Shown here piece by piece: positions 2,049 through 24,569 of a DNA stretch of 31,270 nucleotides. Under the pieces are notes generated by a model. It ran no database searches, was not told the DNA's origin, and worked only from the letters and a program-made list of their open reading frames with translations. This stretch comes from a virus. The DNA lies in IMG/VR virus record IMGVR_UViG_3300045973_000537, positions 1 to 31,270 of that record; one strand, given 5' to 3'. Position 1 is the first letter of the stretch. Every line of letters begins with the position of its first letter. A program made the translations under genes and the position numbers.

Positions 2049-2794
2049 TATAGATTCCTAACTATATTATTTATTACTTCCCTAACATATCTAGCATTAT
2101 GATTAAATAAAACATGCTTAACGAACGTAATAGACTGCCCTATGGCAGATGAAGGTGGTAAATTCTTACCAGAAATTTCTGATTCATTAAGATTATATAT
2201 TTTATTTTTTAAACCTTCTAATGACTGAACTCGTCTTTCAGGAGATATTCTTGTTAAAGTAAATCTAATAATATCAGATAGATACTTACCTACTAATCTA
2301 GGGTCTCCTAATTCTGTAACTGCTGCATTCTTAACAATATCCATATTTAACTTAATTTTATGTTGTTTGTTAAATTGAATTAATGAATTTTGCATAGCAA
2401 TAGCTTCAGGTTTTTGTAACTTATTCTTAACTGCTCGATTAAATTGATTCTGATATAATATCAAAAATTCTTTAACACATTCCTTGGGCGCTTTCTTTCT
2501 CAATTTTCTTAACAAAGAGGAATATGATAATTCTTCAATATCTGTTAAGTCTATTACTGGTATATTTTCATCTTGTATATTATTCGAATCTTCCATATGT
2601 TTAAAGAATTCTATTTGTTTAAGGCGTTTCTTCGCAGATACTTCAGATGTATATGTTCCTAAATTTTTACCTTTTTGAGACATAACTCTATATTTACCAT
2701 TAGGTAATTTTTTAATTACAGCAACTTTAAATAAACTAACTAAACAAGTTCGTTTATAATCATCAGCTAGCTTTAAAATATTATCATAGTTCAT
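2048..2794 (-). CDS. Hypothetical phage protein with an N-terminal KGKNLGTY-type module (248 aa)
   Basis: Residues 24-66 contain VIKKLPNGKYRVMS, KGKNLGTYTS and RLKQIEFFKHM. This compact beta-hairpin plus helix module is one I have seen in many uncharacterised phage proteins, but no function is known to me. The rest is helical and basic (pI likely high) with no Cys motif. It ends at a TAATG junction with the phosphatase gene, so the two are probably translationally coupled. No ribosome site is obvious before the ATG at 2794, which follows the stop of the duplicated small gene (2796) almost immediately. Function unknown. Confidence 0.65.
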   Translation of the reverse strand: MNYDNILKLADDYKRTCLVSLFKVAVIKKLPNGKYRVMSQKGKNLGTYTSEVSAKKRLKQIEFFKHMEDSNNIQDENIPVIDLTDIEELSYSSLLRKLRKKAPKECVKEFLILYQNQFNRAVKNKLQKPEAIAMQNSLIQFNKQHKIKLNMDIVKNAAVTELGDPRLVGKYLSDIIRFTLTRISPERRVQSLEGLKNKIYNLNESEISGKNLPPSSAIGQSITFVKHVLFNHNARYVREVINNIVRNL

Positions 2795-2795
2795 A

Positions 2796-3206
2796 TTATT
2801 TCGTTTTTGTAGTTAAATTTTTAACTTCCGTTGCTTCACGACTTCTTAAAAAGATATCATCAAGAATACCATTACCATCAACTTCACAAAATCCTCTAAT
2901 AGATCTTTCACTAATAAAAATTTGCTTGCCTATTTTACTAGCTCTAGTGCGTCTATCAATATAAGCACCTTCCATTACTAAACACTCTTTATAAGCAGCA
3001 ATAACTCTTCCAGAAAATACTGCAGCATATGGTGTTGATACTTGTTCTGTACTTATATCCTCATATGAGTCGCCAAGATATACTTCAACAAATTTATCTT
3101 TAAATAATGTATATAAAAATTCAGCAATAGTAGAATGACTTCCTTTGCTTTCATTATCTATATTCATTTTTGTGATTACATCATCTAATTCTTTTTGTGG
3201 TATCAT
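2796..3206 (-). CDS. Hypothetical protein, downstream copy of a tandem duplicated pair (136 aa)
   Basis: This protein is clearly paralogous to its neighbour at 3209-3604. Roughly 70% of aligned residues are identical over about 105 positions, with shared blocks such as AAVFSGRVIAAY, GKQIFISER, DGNGIL and DIFLRSREATEVK. The start at 3206 (MIPQKELDD) is chosen over the ATG at 3212 because GGAGA lies 6 bases before it and it aligns with MISQVELDN of the paralog. The 3212 ATG has no room for a ribosome site. It is mixed alpha/beta with no Cys motif or membrane segment. No family is recognised. Compared with its paralog it has an insertion of several residues (about 17-22) near the N-terminus, and the C-terminal few residues differ completely. 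Confidence 0.7.
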   Translation of the reverse strand: MIPQKELDDVITKMNIDNESKGSHSTIAEFLYTLFKDKFVEVYLGDSYEDISTEQVSTPYAAVFSGRVIAAYKECLVMEGAYIDRRTRASKIGKQIFISERSIRGFCEVDGNGILDDIFLRSREATEVKNLTTKTK

Positions 3207-3208
3207 AA

Positions 3209-3604
3209 TCATTCTCCATTTAAATATAAATCTTTAACTTCTGTCGCTTCACGGCTTCTTAGAAAAATATCTTCAAGGATACCATTGCCATCTATTTCAC
3301 AAAAACCTTTAATTGCTCTTTCACTAATGAAAATTTGTTTACCAACTTTCCATTTGTTTGTAGCTCTATCAATATAAGACCCTTCAAGAATTAAACATTC
3401 TCGATAAGCAGCAATAACTCTTCCAGAAAATACTGCAGCAAATGTAGATGATACTTGTTCCGTGCTAACTTGTTCGTATATGTCACCAATATAAACTTCT
3501 ATAAATTTACCTTTAAATAATTTAAATAAAAATTCAGCTACAGTTGCTTTCCTAGTAACATTCATCTCTTTAATTACATTATCTAATTCTACTTGTGATA
3601 TCAT
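3209..3604 (-). CDS. Hypothetical protein, upstream copy of a tandem duplicated pair (131 aa)
   Basis: It starts at an ATG with AAGGA seven bases upstream and runs straight into the second copy. The paralogs share the order: N-terminal helix with LDNVI, TVAEFLFKLFK, IEVYIGDIYE, a central beta-rich FSGRVIAAYRECL, then ISERAIKGFCEIDGNGIL. The strong conservation of the centre and C-terminal half, with divergence at both ends, suggests both copies are selected and fold alike. They could form a heteromer or successive rings. The function is unknown. The genes sit directly downstream of the transglycosylase gene in the virion block. Confidence 0.7.
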   Translation of the reverse strand: MISQVELDNVIKEMNVTRKATVAEFLFKLFKGKFIEVYIGDIYEQVSTEQVSSTFAAVFSGRVIAAYRECLILEGSYIDRATNKWKVGKQIFISERAIKGFCEIDGNGILEDIFLRSREATEVKDLYLNGE

Positions 3605-8479: not shown

Positions 8480-10366
8480 TTAGAATCTTCTTGGTACAAA
8501 TCCAGTTAATATTAAAGGTTTATTTTGATCTTTAAAATTCTGTTGTTGTAAAAGAGGATTGTTATTTGTAAATCCAGATGTAACAAGAAACTTATAACCT
8601 AAATAAGCGTTCAATAATGCCATAAATCCATCGTTTGGAGTACTTCCTTTTACATAATGAATTACAGGATCAGAACCTGTTTTTGATATAGATGGTTTTA
8701 CTTCCATACTAGAACAATGATCAATTAGCCAAGCTAACTTTTCAAAATCTCCATATGGAAATCTAATTTGTCCCTTCTTCATTTGTTCATAAAGTTCTCT
8801 AATATAAAAATCTCTTTCAAAATCTAATTCTTTTGGAAAAGCTTCTTTCATAAATAAAACATGATTATTAACTTTACCTCTTGCTCTAGAAACAATATAT
8901 CTATCACCATAAATAGTGTGTAATGTTTCAGATAAATCTTGTGAGAACCCAATATCTCCAACTGCTAATTGAATACTATATTGTCTCATTATCTGATCAA
9001 TAATACCTTTTTTACTTTCCATATCGTTTCGTTTAAATTTAGTAGCAAATTCAATAGATAATAATCCTGGTCCTTTAGCAACTAATACCACTGCAGTACT
9101 ATAAGATTGTCCAGCAACTTTTACTTTTTCTGGATTTGCTAATTGCTCTATGTCTGCTCTTAATCCATAGTCTAATCCAAGAACTACCATTTGTTCTTCA
9201 CCAGGATTAATTCTAGCTTTAAACTTCCTCCCAGCATCACCACAATGTTCTGCTATCTCTTCAGGAGTTATTGGGCTTGTATCACCTTGAAAAAATTCTC
9301 CTAAAACTTCTGTATGATAAATTCTTTCAGTATTAATTGGATGCTTTCCTGGCTTTTCATTCTCAAGATCTGATTTTTTAAATGTAGGCATATATAATTG
9401 ATTGATATGAAATCCAATCATTTTACAATCTTCACTATTATGATCTTTTAAAGCTACCCATTTACCACGTTCTGCGGCTTCTCTTTTATCTTGTTCAAAT
9501 CCACAATGAGGACATTTAACTATATAATCATACAACCAAATACTTTCCCATTCGTCAGATCCTGGAGTATATAATGGAAAATGTTCTCCACATTTTTCAC
9601 ATCCAAGATAATAATATTGTTGAGAAGATGACATCCACATTTTATGGAAATCAGATCCTTTACGACGTGGAGTACCAAAATATACTTGAACACCTTTACT
9701 TGGCTTACCATATTTAGCAGTTGTTAAAATCTTAAGCGCATTTCCCATTGCTAAACCAGTTGTTCTTTGTACTTCATCAAAAAAAATAACATCTGCTGTA
9801 CGACCCATTAATCTATCTGCATCAATACCTGTAGATTCAATCCATATATGATTTCCACCAACAAATTGTTTAAAATGTAATGAATCATTTGTAGGACTAG
9901 TTGGATCTAATAATCCTTGCATATAAGATTTTATTTTACCAGCAGAATTCTTTTTATCATCATCTTCTAATCTAGCTGATGTAGAAATCATTTGATTTAA
10001 TTTTGTTTTTGAATATGCTGCAGCTAATTCTAATAATGGAAAAGCATGAATTACTCTTATAGGTGGTTTACTACCTACTCCAAATAAACCAGAACCCATA
10101 AAATACATTTCAAGGGCTCCTGCCATAGTTGTTCCGCCAACCTGACGACCTTTAACTAAAATTACTGGTAACGCATTTGGTTCTAACGCTTTAATTCCAA
10201 TATATCTATAAATATCTGCAAATGGTTTATAGCCATTTCCATGCAGTCTAAATGGTTCACCATCTAACGTTAAGTATTTTTCTACGAAAGCTACAGGATC
10301 AATCATTGCTAATTGATCTTTTAACTGATTAAATAAGTCTTTAGATTCATTCGTTGGCTTGCTCAT
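8480..10366 (-). CDS. terL: Terminase large subunit (ATPase-nuclease packaging motor), GpA/zinc-ribbon type (628 aa)
   Basis: The motor that cuts concatemeric DNA and pumps it into the prohead. The ATPase domain (about 20-240) has a deviant Walker A VKGRQVGGTTM (71-81) and Walker B DVIFFDE (192-198), followed by FGTPRRKGSDF as the coupling motif. A zinc ribbon is inserted with Cys256/Cys259 and Cys285/Cys288 (CEKC, CPHC), as in GpA-like terminases. The RNase H-fold nuclease begins VVLGLDYG with Asp399, and Asp471 lies in AVGDIGF. No ribosome site is evident upstream of the ATG at 10366. MIDPVAFVEKY at residue 21 is a possible internal start. The upstream gap is only 26 bases to a divergent plus-strand gene, and a strong terminator at 10902-10928 separates it from the operon upstream, so it probably has its own promoter. 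Confidence 0.93.
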   Translation of the reverse strand: MSKPTNESKDLFNQLKDQLAMIDPVAFVEKYLTLDGEPFRLHGNGYKPFADIYRYIGIKALEPNALPVILVKGRQVGGTTMAGALEMYFMGSGLFGVGSKPPIRVIHAFPLLELAAAYSKTKLNQMISTSARLEDDDKKNSAGKIKSYMQGLLDPTSPTNDSLHFKQFVGGNHIWIESTGIDADRLMGRTADVIFFDEVQRTTGLAMGNALKILTTAKYGKPSKGVQVYFGTPRRKGSDFHKMWMSSSQQYYYLGCEKCGEHFPLYTPGSDEWESIWLYDYIVKCPHCGFEQDKREAAERGKWVALKDHNSEDCKMIGFHINQLYMPTFKKSDLENEKPGKHPINTERIYHTEVLGEFFQGDTSPITPEEIAEHCGDAGRKFKARINPGEEQMVVLGLDYGLRADIEQLANPEKVKVAGQSYSTAVVLVAKGPGLLSIEFATKFKRNDMESKKGIIDQIMRQYSIQLAVGDIGFSQDLSETLHTIYGDRYIVSRARGKVNNHVLFMKEAFPKELDFERDFYIRELYEQMKKGQIRFPYGDFEKLAWLIDHCSSMEVKPSISKTGSDPVIHYVKGSTPNDGFMALLNAYLGYKFLVTSGFTNNNPLLQQQNFKDQNKPLILTGFVPRRF

Positions 10367-10392
10367 ACATAAATGATGATATATTAACTAGT

Positions 10393-11037
10393 ATGAATGC
10401 GCAGAAAAATCAAGATCCAATGAAATGTATCAAATGCAGTGTTATCATAAATAGTTCAAATTGGAATATTTACGACAAAATTAATAATAGATACATATGC
10501 AATACATGTAGGAAAATACAAGACAAAGAGCGTCATTCTAAAAATGAGAATTATAACAAATCTCAATTACACAGATACCATAATAAAAAGAGTGCTGTCA
10601 TTCATTTTTATGGAGATATGTGTGAGCAATGTGGAGAAACAGAATATACAAAATTAACAATTGATTACAGAAACCAAACAAAAACAAAATTAACAAATTA
10701 TGCATTATATAGTTTATTGTATGACAACATAATAAATATAAACAAATATCAAGTATTATGTTTTAATTGTAAAAAAATCAAAAATATAACCAATAAAGAC
10801 AAATACTCTTTTAAAGCCAAAAACATAGTTATCAATCAATATGGCGGAAGTTGCGTTAACTGTAAAGAAGCTAGAATAAATTGCCTAACTATTGAACAAA
10901 AAAAAAGCACTGATAATCAGTGCTTTTTAAAAGGTATTAAATTGTATAGGTGGCTAATAAAACAACAATTTCCAGATTTAGACTTGCAAATTATTTGTTA
11001 TAATTGTAGTAAATCAAGTTGTCTTGGCGGGGACTAA
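10393..11037 (+). CDS. Degenerate double HNH-like zinc protein; the only plus-strand gene
   Basis: A Lys/Asn-rich 214-residue protein with three Cys-pair modules: C12/C15 with C36/C39 (zinc ribbon), C77/C80 with C123/C126, and C154/C157 with C202/C205. The last two resemble HNH endonuclease modules of the kind common in phages (CxxCG...LTIDH...FQVLCxNC). The catalytic DH is DY (91-92) in the first and EQ (168-169) in the second, and the following His-containing stretch is missing, so nuclease activity is doubtful. Codons 170-179 are formed by a terminator hairpin. The ATG at 10393 is preferred; a longer frame from a TTG at 10354 would overlap the terminase start, and ATG 10420 is also possible. 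No clear ribosome site precedes any of them. The 3' end overlaps the opposing gene by 24 bases. It may be a domesticated or decaying mobile gene. Confidence 0.7.
   Translation: MNAQKNQDPMKCIKCSVIINSSNWNIYDKINNRYICNTCRKIQDKERHSKNENYNKSQLHRYHNKKSAVIHFYGDMCEQCGETEYTKLTIDYRNQTKTKLTNYALYSLLYDNIININKYQVLCFNCKKIKNITNKDKYSFKAKNIVINQYGGSCVNCKEARINCLTIEQKKSTDNQCFLKGIKLYRWLIKQQFPDLDLQIICYNCSKSSCLGGD
10902..10928. terminator. Bidirectional intrinsic terminator inside a reading frame
   Basis: A perfect 12-bp stem (AAAAAGCACTGA, loop TAA, TCAGTGCTTTTT) with GC-rich core GCACTGA. On the minus strand the stem is followed by nine T residues (plus-strand A-run 10898-10906), a strong rho-independent terminator about 110 bases beyond the stop of the gene at 11014-11676. 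On the plus strand only about five Ts follow, so it would be weaker there. It lies entirely within the plus-strand coding sequence. Confidence 0.85.
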
Positions 11038-11676
11038 TCCACTAAAAAAGTCAGTATTAGCAGAATCAATATCATCATTTGCAGCATCATCTCGTGTGCC
11101 TAAATTCATTGACTCATTTTGTTGTGGCGCTTTGCTTTTTTCATCTAAATTTAATCTACTAACATATTTAACCAAATCATCACATTCCCAATCTTTAGCT
11201 TCTGAAACATCATTTTGATGAATATCTCTAGTTCTACCAATAATTGCAGGAAGTGATAAATTGCCTTTTGTACTTTTTATTATATTTTCTATGGTTCGTT
11301 TAATATGAGGAGCTTTTAATAAAAGTGCTGGAAGTTTTTGTTCAACTGGAACTTGTTTAGCTATCGCAGAATTATTATCTGATGCTTTTTTTGATTGTTG
11401 TCCTGATTGGTCATCTTCTGATATTTTGACATTATTTAAAAATGCAGATAAACCACTTCTATCTTTCATATCTTCAACAGCTGCAGCTACTGAAGGATAC
11501 TTTGATTTATTATTCATTATAGAATTAATTTGATCAAACAAAAAACTATCAGTTGATTTTGGTTGAACAGCTTCTTTTTCTATTAATTTCTTTTGAAATT
11601 GTTTTAACCAATGATCTTCGTCAATGCCTTCATCTGCATTTCTAGAAATAATTGATAAATATCTATTATTGCTCAT
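11014..11676 (-). CDS. Hypothetical virion-block protein (220 aa)
   Basis: A soluble, mostly helical protein without Cys clusters or membrane segments. It contains a YPSVAAAVEDMKDRSGL segment (about 60-76) and a later helix pair, LPALLLKAPHIKRTIENIIK and LPAIIGRTRDIHQNDVS, with WECDDLVKYVSRLN. I have a sense of similar uncharacterised phage proteins but cannot name a family. The C-terminal 35 residues are acidic and probably disordered. AGAGG lies five bases before the ATG, inside the end of the upstream gene. The gene's tail is convergent with, and overlaps, the plus-strand gene; the terminator at 10902-10928 would end its transcript. Confidence 0.65.
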   Translation of the reverse strand: MSNNRYLSIISRNADEGIDEDHWLKQFQKKLIEKEAVQPKSTDSFLFDQINSIMNNKSKYPSVAAAVEDMKDRSGLSAFLNNVKISEDDQSGQQSKKASDNNSAIAKQVPVEQKLPALLLKAPHIKRTIENIIKSTKGNLSLPAIIGRTRDIHQNDVSEAKDWECDDLVKYVSRLNLDEKSKAPQQNESMNLGTRDDAANDDIDSANTDFFSGLVPAKTT

Positions 11677-23889: not shown

Positions 23890-24500
23890 TTACTTTGCTT
23901 TGCTTTGCTTTTAATCTTTCTTGGTTTCTTAACTTTAGGTTTAGCTGGTTTTACTTTCTTTTTCTTGACTCTTCCAGTTAAAACAAAAGCATAATATAAC
24001 GCAACAGCTACGCCGTCCGCTGTGTCATAGCTTTCTTCAGCAATTTTCCCACGATTATTTTTCTCATAAGGAAATGTAATTCCTAAATGTTTTGCGACAA
24101 GCTCTGGCATATCTTCTTTTTTTGGTAGAATTTTATTTAATTTCAATCCGTGCCTTATAGTTAAGACATTAAATAATTCTGGAGATTTATTTAAAAAATC
24201 ATTCGCTAATAAACAAGTCATTCTATTAAAAGTAGCTAACATAACTATTGTATCAGCGCTACTTTTACCTTGCATAAACTTTATAATATCTTCTATTCCA
24301 ATATAATCTGGTGTAATTTTTTTAATTATTTCTAACAACCTATCTCTTGTATGTACTATTCTTTCTGTTATAGTTCCTTCTTTAAGAGGTTTAATATAAC
24401 CTGCATCTAGAAACTTTATATCTCCAGATAATTCATCAATAGATAATAATCCCCATCCAATAGTGGTTGAAGATACGTCAAAACCTAATACTTTATTCAT
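23886..24500 (-). CDS. RuvC-like Holliday-junction/branched-DNA nuclease (204 aa)
   Basis: An RNase H-fold resolvase that would cut four-way or branched DNA before packaging. The four acidic residues of the active site are visible: Asp8 in GFDVSSTTIGWG, Glu70 in YIGIEDI, and Asp159 and Asp162 in ESYDTADGVAVAL. The C-terminus from about residue 178 is a Lys/Pro-rich tail (KKKKVKPAKPKVKKPRKIK) that probably binds DNA non-specifically. There is no ribosome site upstream; TGATATATA lies so close that transcription would start at the ATG itself. A terminator sits 33 bases farther upstream, so the gene appears to begin a new transcription unit. Three TTTGC-type pentamers lie at its 3' end. Confidence 0.9.
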   Translation of the reverse strand: MNKVLGFDVSSTTIGWGLLSIDELSGDIKFLDAGYIKPLKEGTITERIVHTRDRLLEIIKKITPDYIGIEDIIKFMQGKSSADTIVMLATFNRMTCLLANDFLNKSPELFNVLTIRHGLKLNKILPKKEDMPELVAKHLGITFPYEKNNRGKIAEESYDTADGVAVALYYAFVLTGRVKKKKVKPAKPKVKKPRKIKSKAKQSK

Positions 24501-24532: not shown

Positions 24533-24569
24533 AAAAGGGTCTAAAGTTGTTTAGACCTTAGACCCTTTT
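24533..24569. terminator. Bidirectional intrinsic terminator with alternative inner hairpin
   Basis: The outer stem AAAAGGGTCTAA (24533-24544) pairs with TTAGACCCTTTT (24558-24569), giving a 12-bp perfect stem that ends in T-rich sequence on both strands. An inner perfect 8-bp hairpin, GGTCTAAA-GTTG-TTTAGACC (24538-24557), shares bases with it, so the two folds exclude each other. It lies about 20 bases downstream of the SSB stop and separates that unit from the RuvC-like gene. Confidence 0.85.

Follow-up and report, generated by a model that had tools for sequence, protein, structure and literature searches.

Bidirectional terminators between convergent genes are reported to be pervasive in E. 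coli. In phage T4, the free-standing homing endonuclease genes mobE and segF carry internal intrinsic terminators in the sense direction; that of mobE stops ~30% of transcripts, and nrdB, the gene after mobE, is served by a promoter of its own (PMC2988022). The vicinity of terminase is a known hot spot for HEG-like nucleases, among them T5orf172 and IPA-HNH of ICP1 and the HNH protein of HK97, the last of these being a catalytic protein that works with terminase and aids cos cleavage (PMC10448857). Other fates of such proteins are exemplified by WhiA, a relative of homing endonucleases that now regulates transcription (PMC3781837).

The viral locus described here has features in common with each of these systems. 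As with the bacterial bidirectional terminators, a hairpin with A/T tracts is found near the meeting point of convergent genes; unlike them, it lies ~100 nt inside one coding sequence and its tail is strong on one strand only. The likeness to T4 mobE and segF is that a putative terminator lies inside the coding sequence of a nuclease gene that is free-standing and located between essential phage genes. However, the T4 terminators are sense-directed and near the 5' end, whereas the one considered here is on the opposite strand, in active-site codons near the 3' end, and hairpins of this type recur with different sequences. As in ICP1 and HK97, a nuclease gene adjoins terminase, while no antisense gene with an embedded terminator is described for those nucleases in the accessible part of the source (PMC10448857). 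WhiA provides a precedent for a non-nuclease fate of the homing-endonuclease fold, albeit from another endonuclease family. A literature search that took in few subscription journals returned no published case in which the active-site codons of such a gene contain a terminator for the opposite strand. Internal terminators in phage nuclease genes are known, and judging from sequence the variant here would be one that is antisense and placed in active-site codons.

The window, by which we mean the entire virus contig of 31,270 bp (30% GC), has its genes on the minus strand, including those for the terminase large subunit and portal. The sole exception appears to be a plus-strand gene at 10393-11037, as the preliminary description had stated, for which an alternative TTG start is possible at 10354. 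Elsewhere in the window, two adjacent minus-strand genes (2796-3212 and 3209-3604) have clearly similar products, a tandem duplication. The features relevant to the plus-strand gene are as follows:

8480-10366, minus strand: terminase large subunit, the putative downstream transcription unit
10367-10392: 26 bp of non-coding DNA from which terminase and the HNH-like gene diverge, their start codons flanking it; candidate divergent promoter
10393-11037, plus strand: degenerate two-module HNH/endonuclease VII-like gene of 214 codons, antisense to the late operon
10426-10509, plus strand: N-terminal zinc knuckle (C12/C15...C36/C39), invariant in all aligned homologues
10621-10770, plus strand: HNH module 1 (C77/C80...C123/C126), with DY and not DH at codons 91-92 (10663-10668)
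10852-11007, plus strand: HNH module 2 (C154/C157...C202/C205), with EQ and not DH at codons 168-169 (10894-10899)
10898-10906, minus strand: tract of nine T's (complement of A's), five of which pair in the stem
10902-10928, minus strand: terminator-like hairpin of 12 bp with a 3-nt loop, in module-2 loop codons 170-179
11014-11676, minus strand: gene of 220 aa upstream of terminase (up220), function not known, whose 3' end overlaps that of the HNH-like gene by 24 nt

The product of the plus-strand gene matches phrog_4234 (PHROG 4234, HNH endonuclease) with an E value of 2.8e-7, and its homologues match phrog_2633 and phrog_2255, of the endonuclease VII and HNH families, with E values down to 1e-11. 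Homologues with intact motifs align with the window protein over its full length. No Pfam family scored above threshold, a PDB sequence search gave no significant match, and the HNH proteins 4h9d, 5mkw and 1e7l were among Foldseek matches that were all non-significant. HNH relatedness is therefore based on the PHROG matches and the intact homologues, the Pfam and Foldseek results not being significant by themselves. An AlphaFold2 model (mean pLDDT 84.7) places strands and a helix in both modules, and residues 171-180, which are encoded by the hairpin, are its least confident interior part (pLDDT 63). The window protein shares paired CxxC zinc knuckles with the phage nucleases of PHROG 4234, 2633 and 2255, and all 12 zinc cysteines are present; these 12 are invariant across the nine two-module and loop-deleted homologues that were aligned first. 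Intact members of these families have LTIDH...HR and RR motifs, whereas neither DH pair is present in the window copy, which has also lost the HR/RR residues. On these sequence grounds, the protein is a relative of HNH/endonuclease VII-like nucleases and not an active member. The preliminary description, which had recognized two HNH-like modules with their Cys pairs and without catalytic histidines, was correct on these points, including the HNH relationship itself.

The same codons form the hairpin. On the minus strand the RNA folds at -14.1 kcal/mol (z = -5.65), an energy reached by 0 of 200 shuffles and by ~0.06-0.3% of synonymous recodings of the loop. The features of a Rho-independent terminator are present on this strand, namely a stable GC-containing hairpin followed by U9. 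Since five of the nine T's pair within the stem, an equally valid view of the structure is a 7-bp GC-containing core plus U9, and the perfect 12-bp hairpin with nine T's that had been reported in codons 170-179 is amended to that extent. In a scan of the whole window, this site and an intergenic one tie for the highest-ranking terminator-like site of the minus strand. The intergenic site, at 24533-24569, is a strong hairpin of -21.1 kcal/mol, downstream of which lies ATATATAC...ATG, with the gene start at 24500. The hairpin at 10902-10928 sits 86 nt beyond the stop codon of the opposing up220 and ahead of terminase, in agreement with the original placement, and transcription of up220 is presumed to end there. 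It had been called a strong bidirectional terminator, of which the strength holds for the minus strand; on the plus strand the tail is weak (T5 then AAAA; tail score 3.1 vs 5.6), and a stop in that direction would truncate the HNH-like gene's own mRNA ahead of its stop codon. The computational results thus support one sequence that encodes protein and at the same time forms a terminator-like site on the minus strand.

A search of viral contigs with the window HNH protein alone found no relatives. The family was instead reached via terminase and then by alignments, with 62 loci coming from terminase searches and more added later. Among these relatives, an antisense HNH-like gene is a recurrent tenant of the terminase junction, and exists in three grades. 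Both modules are intact in L017/L018, L035/L047, L066 and L087; the gene is degenerate in the window, L010, L013/L015, L052, L072 and L165; and in L026, L031, L050, L075, L076, L078, L080, L081 and L085 both catalytic loops are deleted with the cysteines kept. The loop-deleted genes form one well supported clade, and the starred branches of the tree require the two-module label to change at least six times. L002-L006 have the closest terminases, and there up220 and terminase are 10-18 bp apart with no gene or hairpin between them. Some loci have further HNH-like copies downstream of terminase in the sense orientation.

We then asked how the module-2 loop compares across these genes, folding the antisense strand of the 18 codons from the LTIDH position and comparing it with synonymous recodings drawn from the gene's own codon usage. 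This energy-based test replaced a gene-wide scoring of perfect stems, which missed the one-mismatch hairpins of L035 and L066. Six of the ten antisense two-module genes exceeded the synonymous null at module 2 (p 0.0006-0.009): the window (-14.1 kcal/mol, p 0.003, or 0.0006 with 5000 recodings), L017/L018 (-18.7 kcal/mol, p 0.001), L035 (-13.3 kcal/mol, p 0.002), L066 (-15.3 kcal/mol, p 0.009), L072 (-15.3 kcal/mol, p 0.001) and L013/L015 (-19.3 kcal/mol, p 0.002). No significant module-2 hairpin was found by this test in L010, L052 or L087, and L165 was marginal (p 0.025), with p at least 0.025 in each of L010, L052 and L165. A replacement terminator sought in L010 and L052 was not found either, and so termination does not seem obligatory there. 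None of 40 comparison sites reached p < 0.01. These comprised the first modules of these ten genes, the co-directional copies found downstream of terminase, copies with one module only, the divergent antisense genes L041 and L054, and HNH genes in other contexts such as L104, where the nearly identical motif TIDHKNNDGAEHRRK gives -2.8 kcal/mol (p 0.83). For 6/10 vs 0/40 the Fisher p is ~1e-5, a value from related loci that are not fully independent and from a loop chosen after the window had been seen. In addition to the window's, 5 of ~26 antisense HNH genes have a strong antisense hairpin with a T tail by gene-wide counts made partly by hand, vs 6 of ~372 other genes. L054 has an antisense hairpin elsewhere, just past its module-2 loop. 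In the antisense single-module gene of L151 (1032-1487, minus strand), a perfect 13-bp hairpin lies in the first-knuckle codons (CRSC; p 0.001).

The six hairpins differ in sequence from phage to phage and occupy the same module-2 codons, with dyad centres that agree within ~3 nt and pairing registers that differ. In L017/L018 a perfect 10-bp hairpin runs through the intact codons KNNDGAVQRRQ, and L035 and L066 have one-mismatch hairpins in intact modules. In the phages that carry it, the hairpin lies ~90-130 nt beyond the opposing stop codon. On the operon strand each of the six is followed by a T-rich tail, which is clear in five and weaker by tail score in L018, where TTTTT follows ATTG; on the HNH strand a T-rich tail is clear only in the window. 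Lys/Asn codons largely dictate the T tail in the intact genes. Strict covariation is comparable only between L018 and L035, where the wobble favours the sense strand (-16.8 vs -13.3). Either the hairpins were passed down while their registers shifted, or they re-formed at one and the same permissive loop, alternatives between which the poorly resolved two-module part of the tree does not decide. As explanations of the structure, a sequence-specific operator was rejected since the hairpin sequences differ among phages, and a tandem-repeat origin was likewise considered and rejected.

At its fixed site, the HNH-like gene is patchily distributed among close terminase relatives, a trait of homing endonuclease genes. 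By this distribution it would qualify as a free-standing homing endonuclease gene; the window copy lacks the catalytic residues. L046 falls into the terminase group of the window, and the short stretch preceding its terminase holds a scrap of an HNH C-terminus, HKLLCYNCNCVK (2386-2421, minus strand), which is evidence for loss of the antisense gene there and suggests that some of the absences are losses. A 13-nt motif, TTTGCACTTACCC, occurs at the up220-terminase junction of L023, L025, L026, L030, L031, L050, L075, L078, L080 and L081, and is inverted in L002/L003. Exact copies in the fetched loci are found only at this junction, including in loci without an HNH gene, and the motif is possibly a scar or target of the cassette. 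A search of the window allowing two mismatches did not find it, so it was rejected as an explanation of the window hairpin. In L044, L046, L049, L052, L054, L056 and L063, interruptions of ~0.4-2 kb, probably introns, divide the terminase coding match near residue 77 or 190-199. Both L052 and L054 combine a split terminase with an antisense HNH gene upstream. Collaborative homing has been described for phages, and the arrangement in these two loci is similar. Several of the related records are hundreds of kilobases long (huge bacterial viruses), and a search of 13 related records (145-481 kb) gave no match to RNA polymerase beta', making use of the host polymerase likely.

The preliminary description suggested that the terminator had overwritten the active site, and proposed asking whether relatives with intact DH/HR lack the hairpin. 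Homologues combining intact catalytic residues with the hairpin were named there as a refutation, and L017/L018 is such a case. The reading that a hairpin arising in or inserted into the second HNH active site inactivated the nuclease draws on the coincidence of hairpin and degenerate motif in the window, L013/L015 and L072. It is contradicted by L017/L018, L035 and L066, which keep DH...RR alongside the hairpin; by L010, L052, L165 and the loop-deleted clade, which lost the motif without a clearly significant hairpin; and by module 1, which was also lost and never with a hairpin. We regard overwriting as highly improbable. Since L018, L035 and L066 have both, hairpin and catalytic decay are separable, and the sequence comparisons indicate that the nuclease motifs were lost repeatedly and independently, and not through the terminator. 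Another possibility, that both gene and hairpin are relics, the hairpin being incidental to a decaying homing-endonuclease pseudogene and neither being functional in this phage, would account for the very long branch of the window protein in the HNH tree (1.66 vs 0.10 for the window terminase), for the nearest relatives without the gene, and for L046, which retains only HKLLCYNCNCVK. Selection on the window protein itself cannot be judged because of this long branch and the lack of a close homologue. Nevertheless, 214 codons remain open at 30% GC with 12/12 cysteines kept, the hairpin is perfect despite rapid change of the protein, and the sister clade without catalytic loops has a dN/dS mostly of 0.12-0.23, leaving a mere relic very improbable.

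Only slightly less improbable is a chance product of self-pairing DGxx(H/Q)RR codons in an AT-rich genome. The motif can yield GAYGG and CCRTC, and the null means lie a few kcal/mol below zero; however, the hairpins are in excess over synonymous nulls and over the 40 comparison sites, including the near-identical motif of L104, and those of the window, L072 and L013 are retained though the full motif is no longer coded. A role on the other strand deserves more weight, and we still consider it unlikely: the hairpin is also present within a sense (HNH) mRNA, where it could limit the nuclease as an attenuator or through effects on stability or translation. Each of the six can also form on the sense strand, where that of L035 folds better than on the antisense strand via a G-U pair, and the internal terminators of T4 mobE and segF are sense-directed (PMC2988022). 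Against this, most of the six have T-poor tails on the sense strand, no such hairpin occurs in the family's co-directional HNH copies, and the hairpin is near the 3' end, distant from the start codon. T tails on the operon strand, a position just past the opposing stop codon and absence from copies that do not face the operon together point to a late-operon terminator. We therefore favour, with reasonable but far from full confidence, Rho-independent termination of the minus-strand late operon at this hairpin, with terminase restarted downstream.

Under this preferred reading, an HNH cassette would split a once continuous operon. The hairpin would stop late-operon transcripts soon after up220, keeping them from running antisense through the HNH-like gene into terminase; we infer actual termination at this site from its features. 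The terminator would be coded in the active-site loop of module 2, which may tolerate sequence change and which, near the 3' end of the antisense gene and just beyond the opposing stop codon, would be a permissive site where a terminator for the opposing operon could be kept or repeatedly rebuilt. If the hairpin ends the late operon, terminase needs its own start, which could be provided by the short conserved sequence that separates the two divergent start codons. The length of this gap (26-27 bp) and an ATAT core are kept in the window and 16 other loci, making it a candidate divergent promoter that would have very short leaders. In the single-module loci L022, L023 and L061, the gap is almost a palindrome, bounded on either side by a start codon. 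Any role of the HNH-like protein in this arrangement would be conjectural. A decidedly speculative extension is that a selfish nuclease gene became a two-part regulator that splits the late operon, the DNA supplying a divergent promoter and an antisense terminator in former active-site codons, and the non-catalytic zinc-scaffold protein regulating one of these elements and setting the timing of terminase.

The loop-deleted clade bears on what the protein may have become. Calculation of dN/dS was restricted to this clade, the two-module group being too diverged for dS, and gave 0.12-0.23 for most pairs (range 0.075-0.233). These proteins are therefore under purifying selection without an active site, so that the open reading frame there is not mere filler and not only an insulator; by sequence, they are apparently a domesticated, non-catalytic HNH scaffold. 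The earlier suggestion that a mobile endonuclease gene was captured as an insulator is thus plausible for the DNA, and sits less well with purifying selection on the protein of this related clade.

Taken together, the locus would represent a single DNA segment read in two ways: one strand encodes an active-site loop, and the other would signal the end of transcription. In several viruses this signal would have been retained or re-formed at the same codons despite change of the protein sequence. Nuclease decay appears separable from gene loss, as a related clade without catalytic loops is under purifying selection. The arrangement suggests a way for an essential operon to accommodate a mobile gene that has inserted in the reverse orientation.
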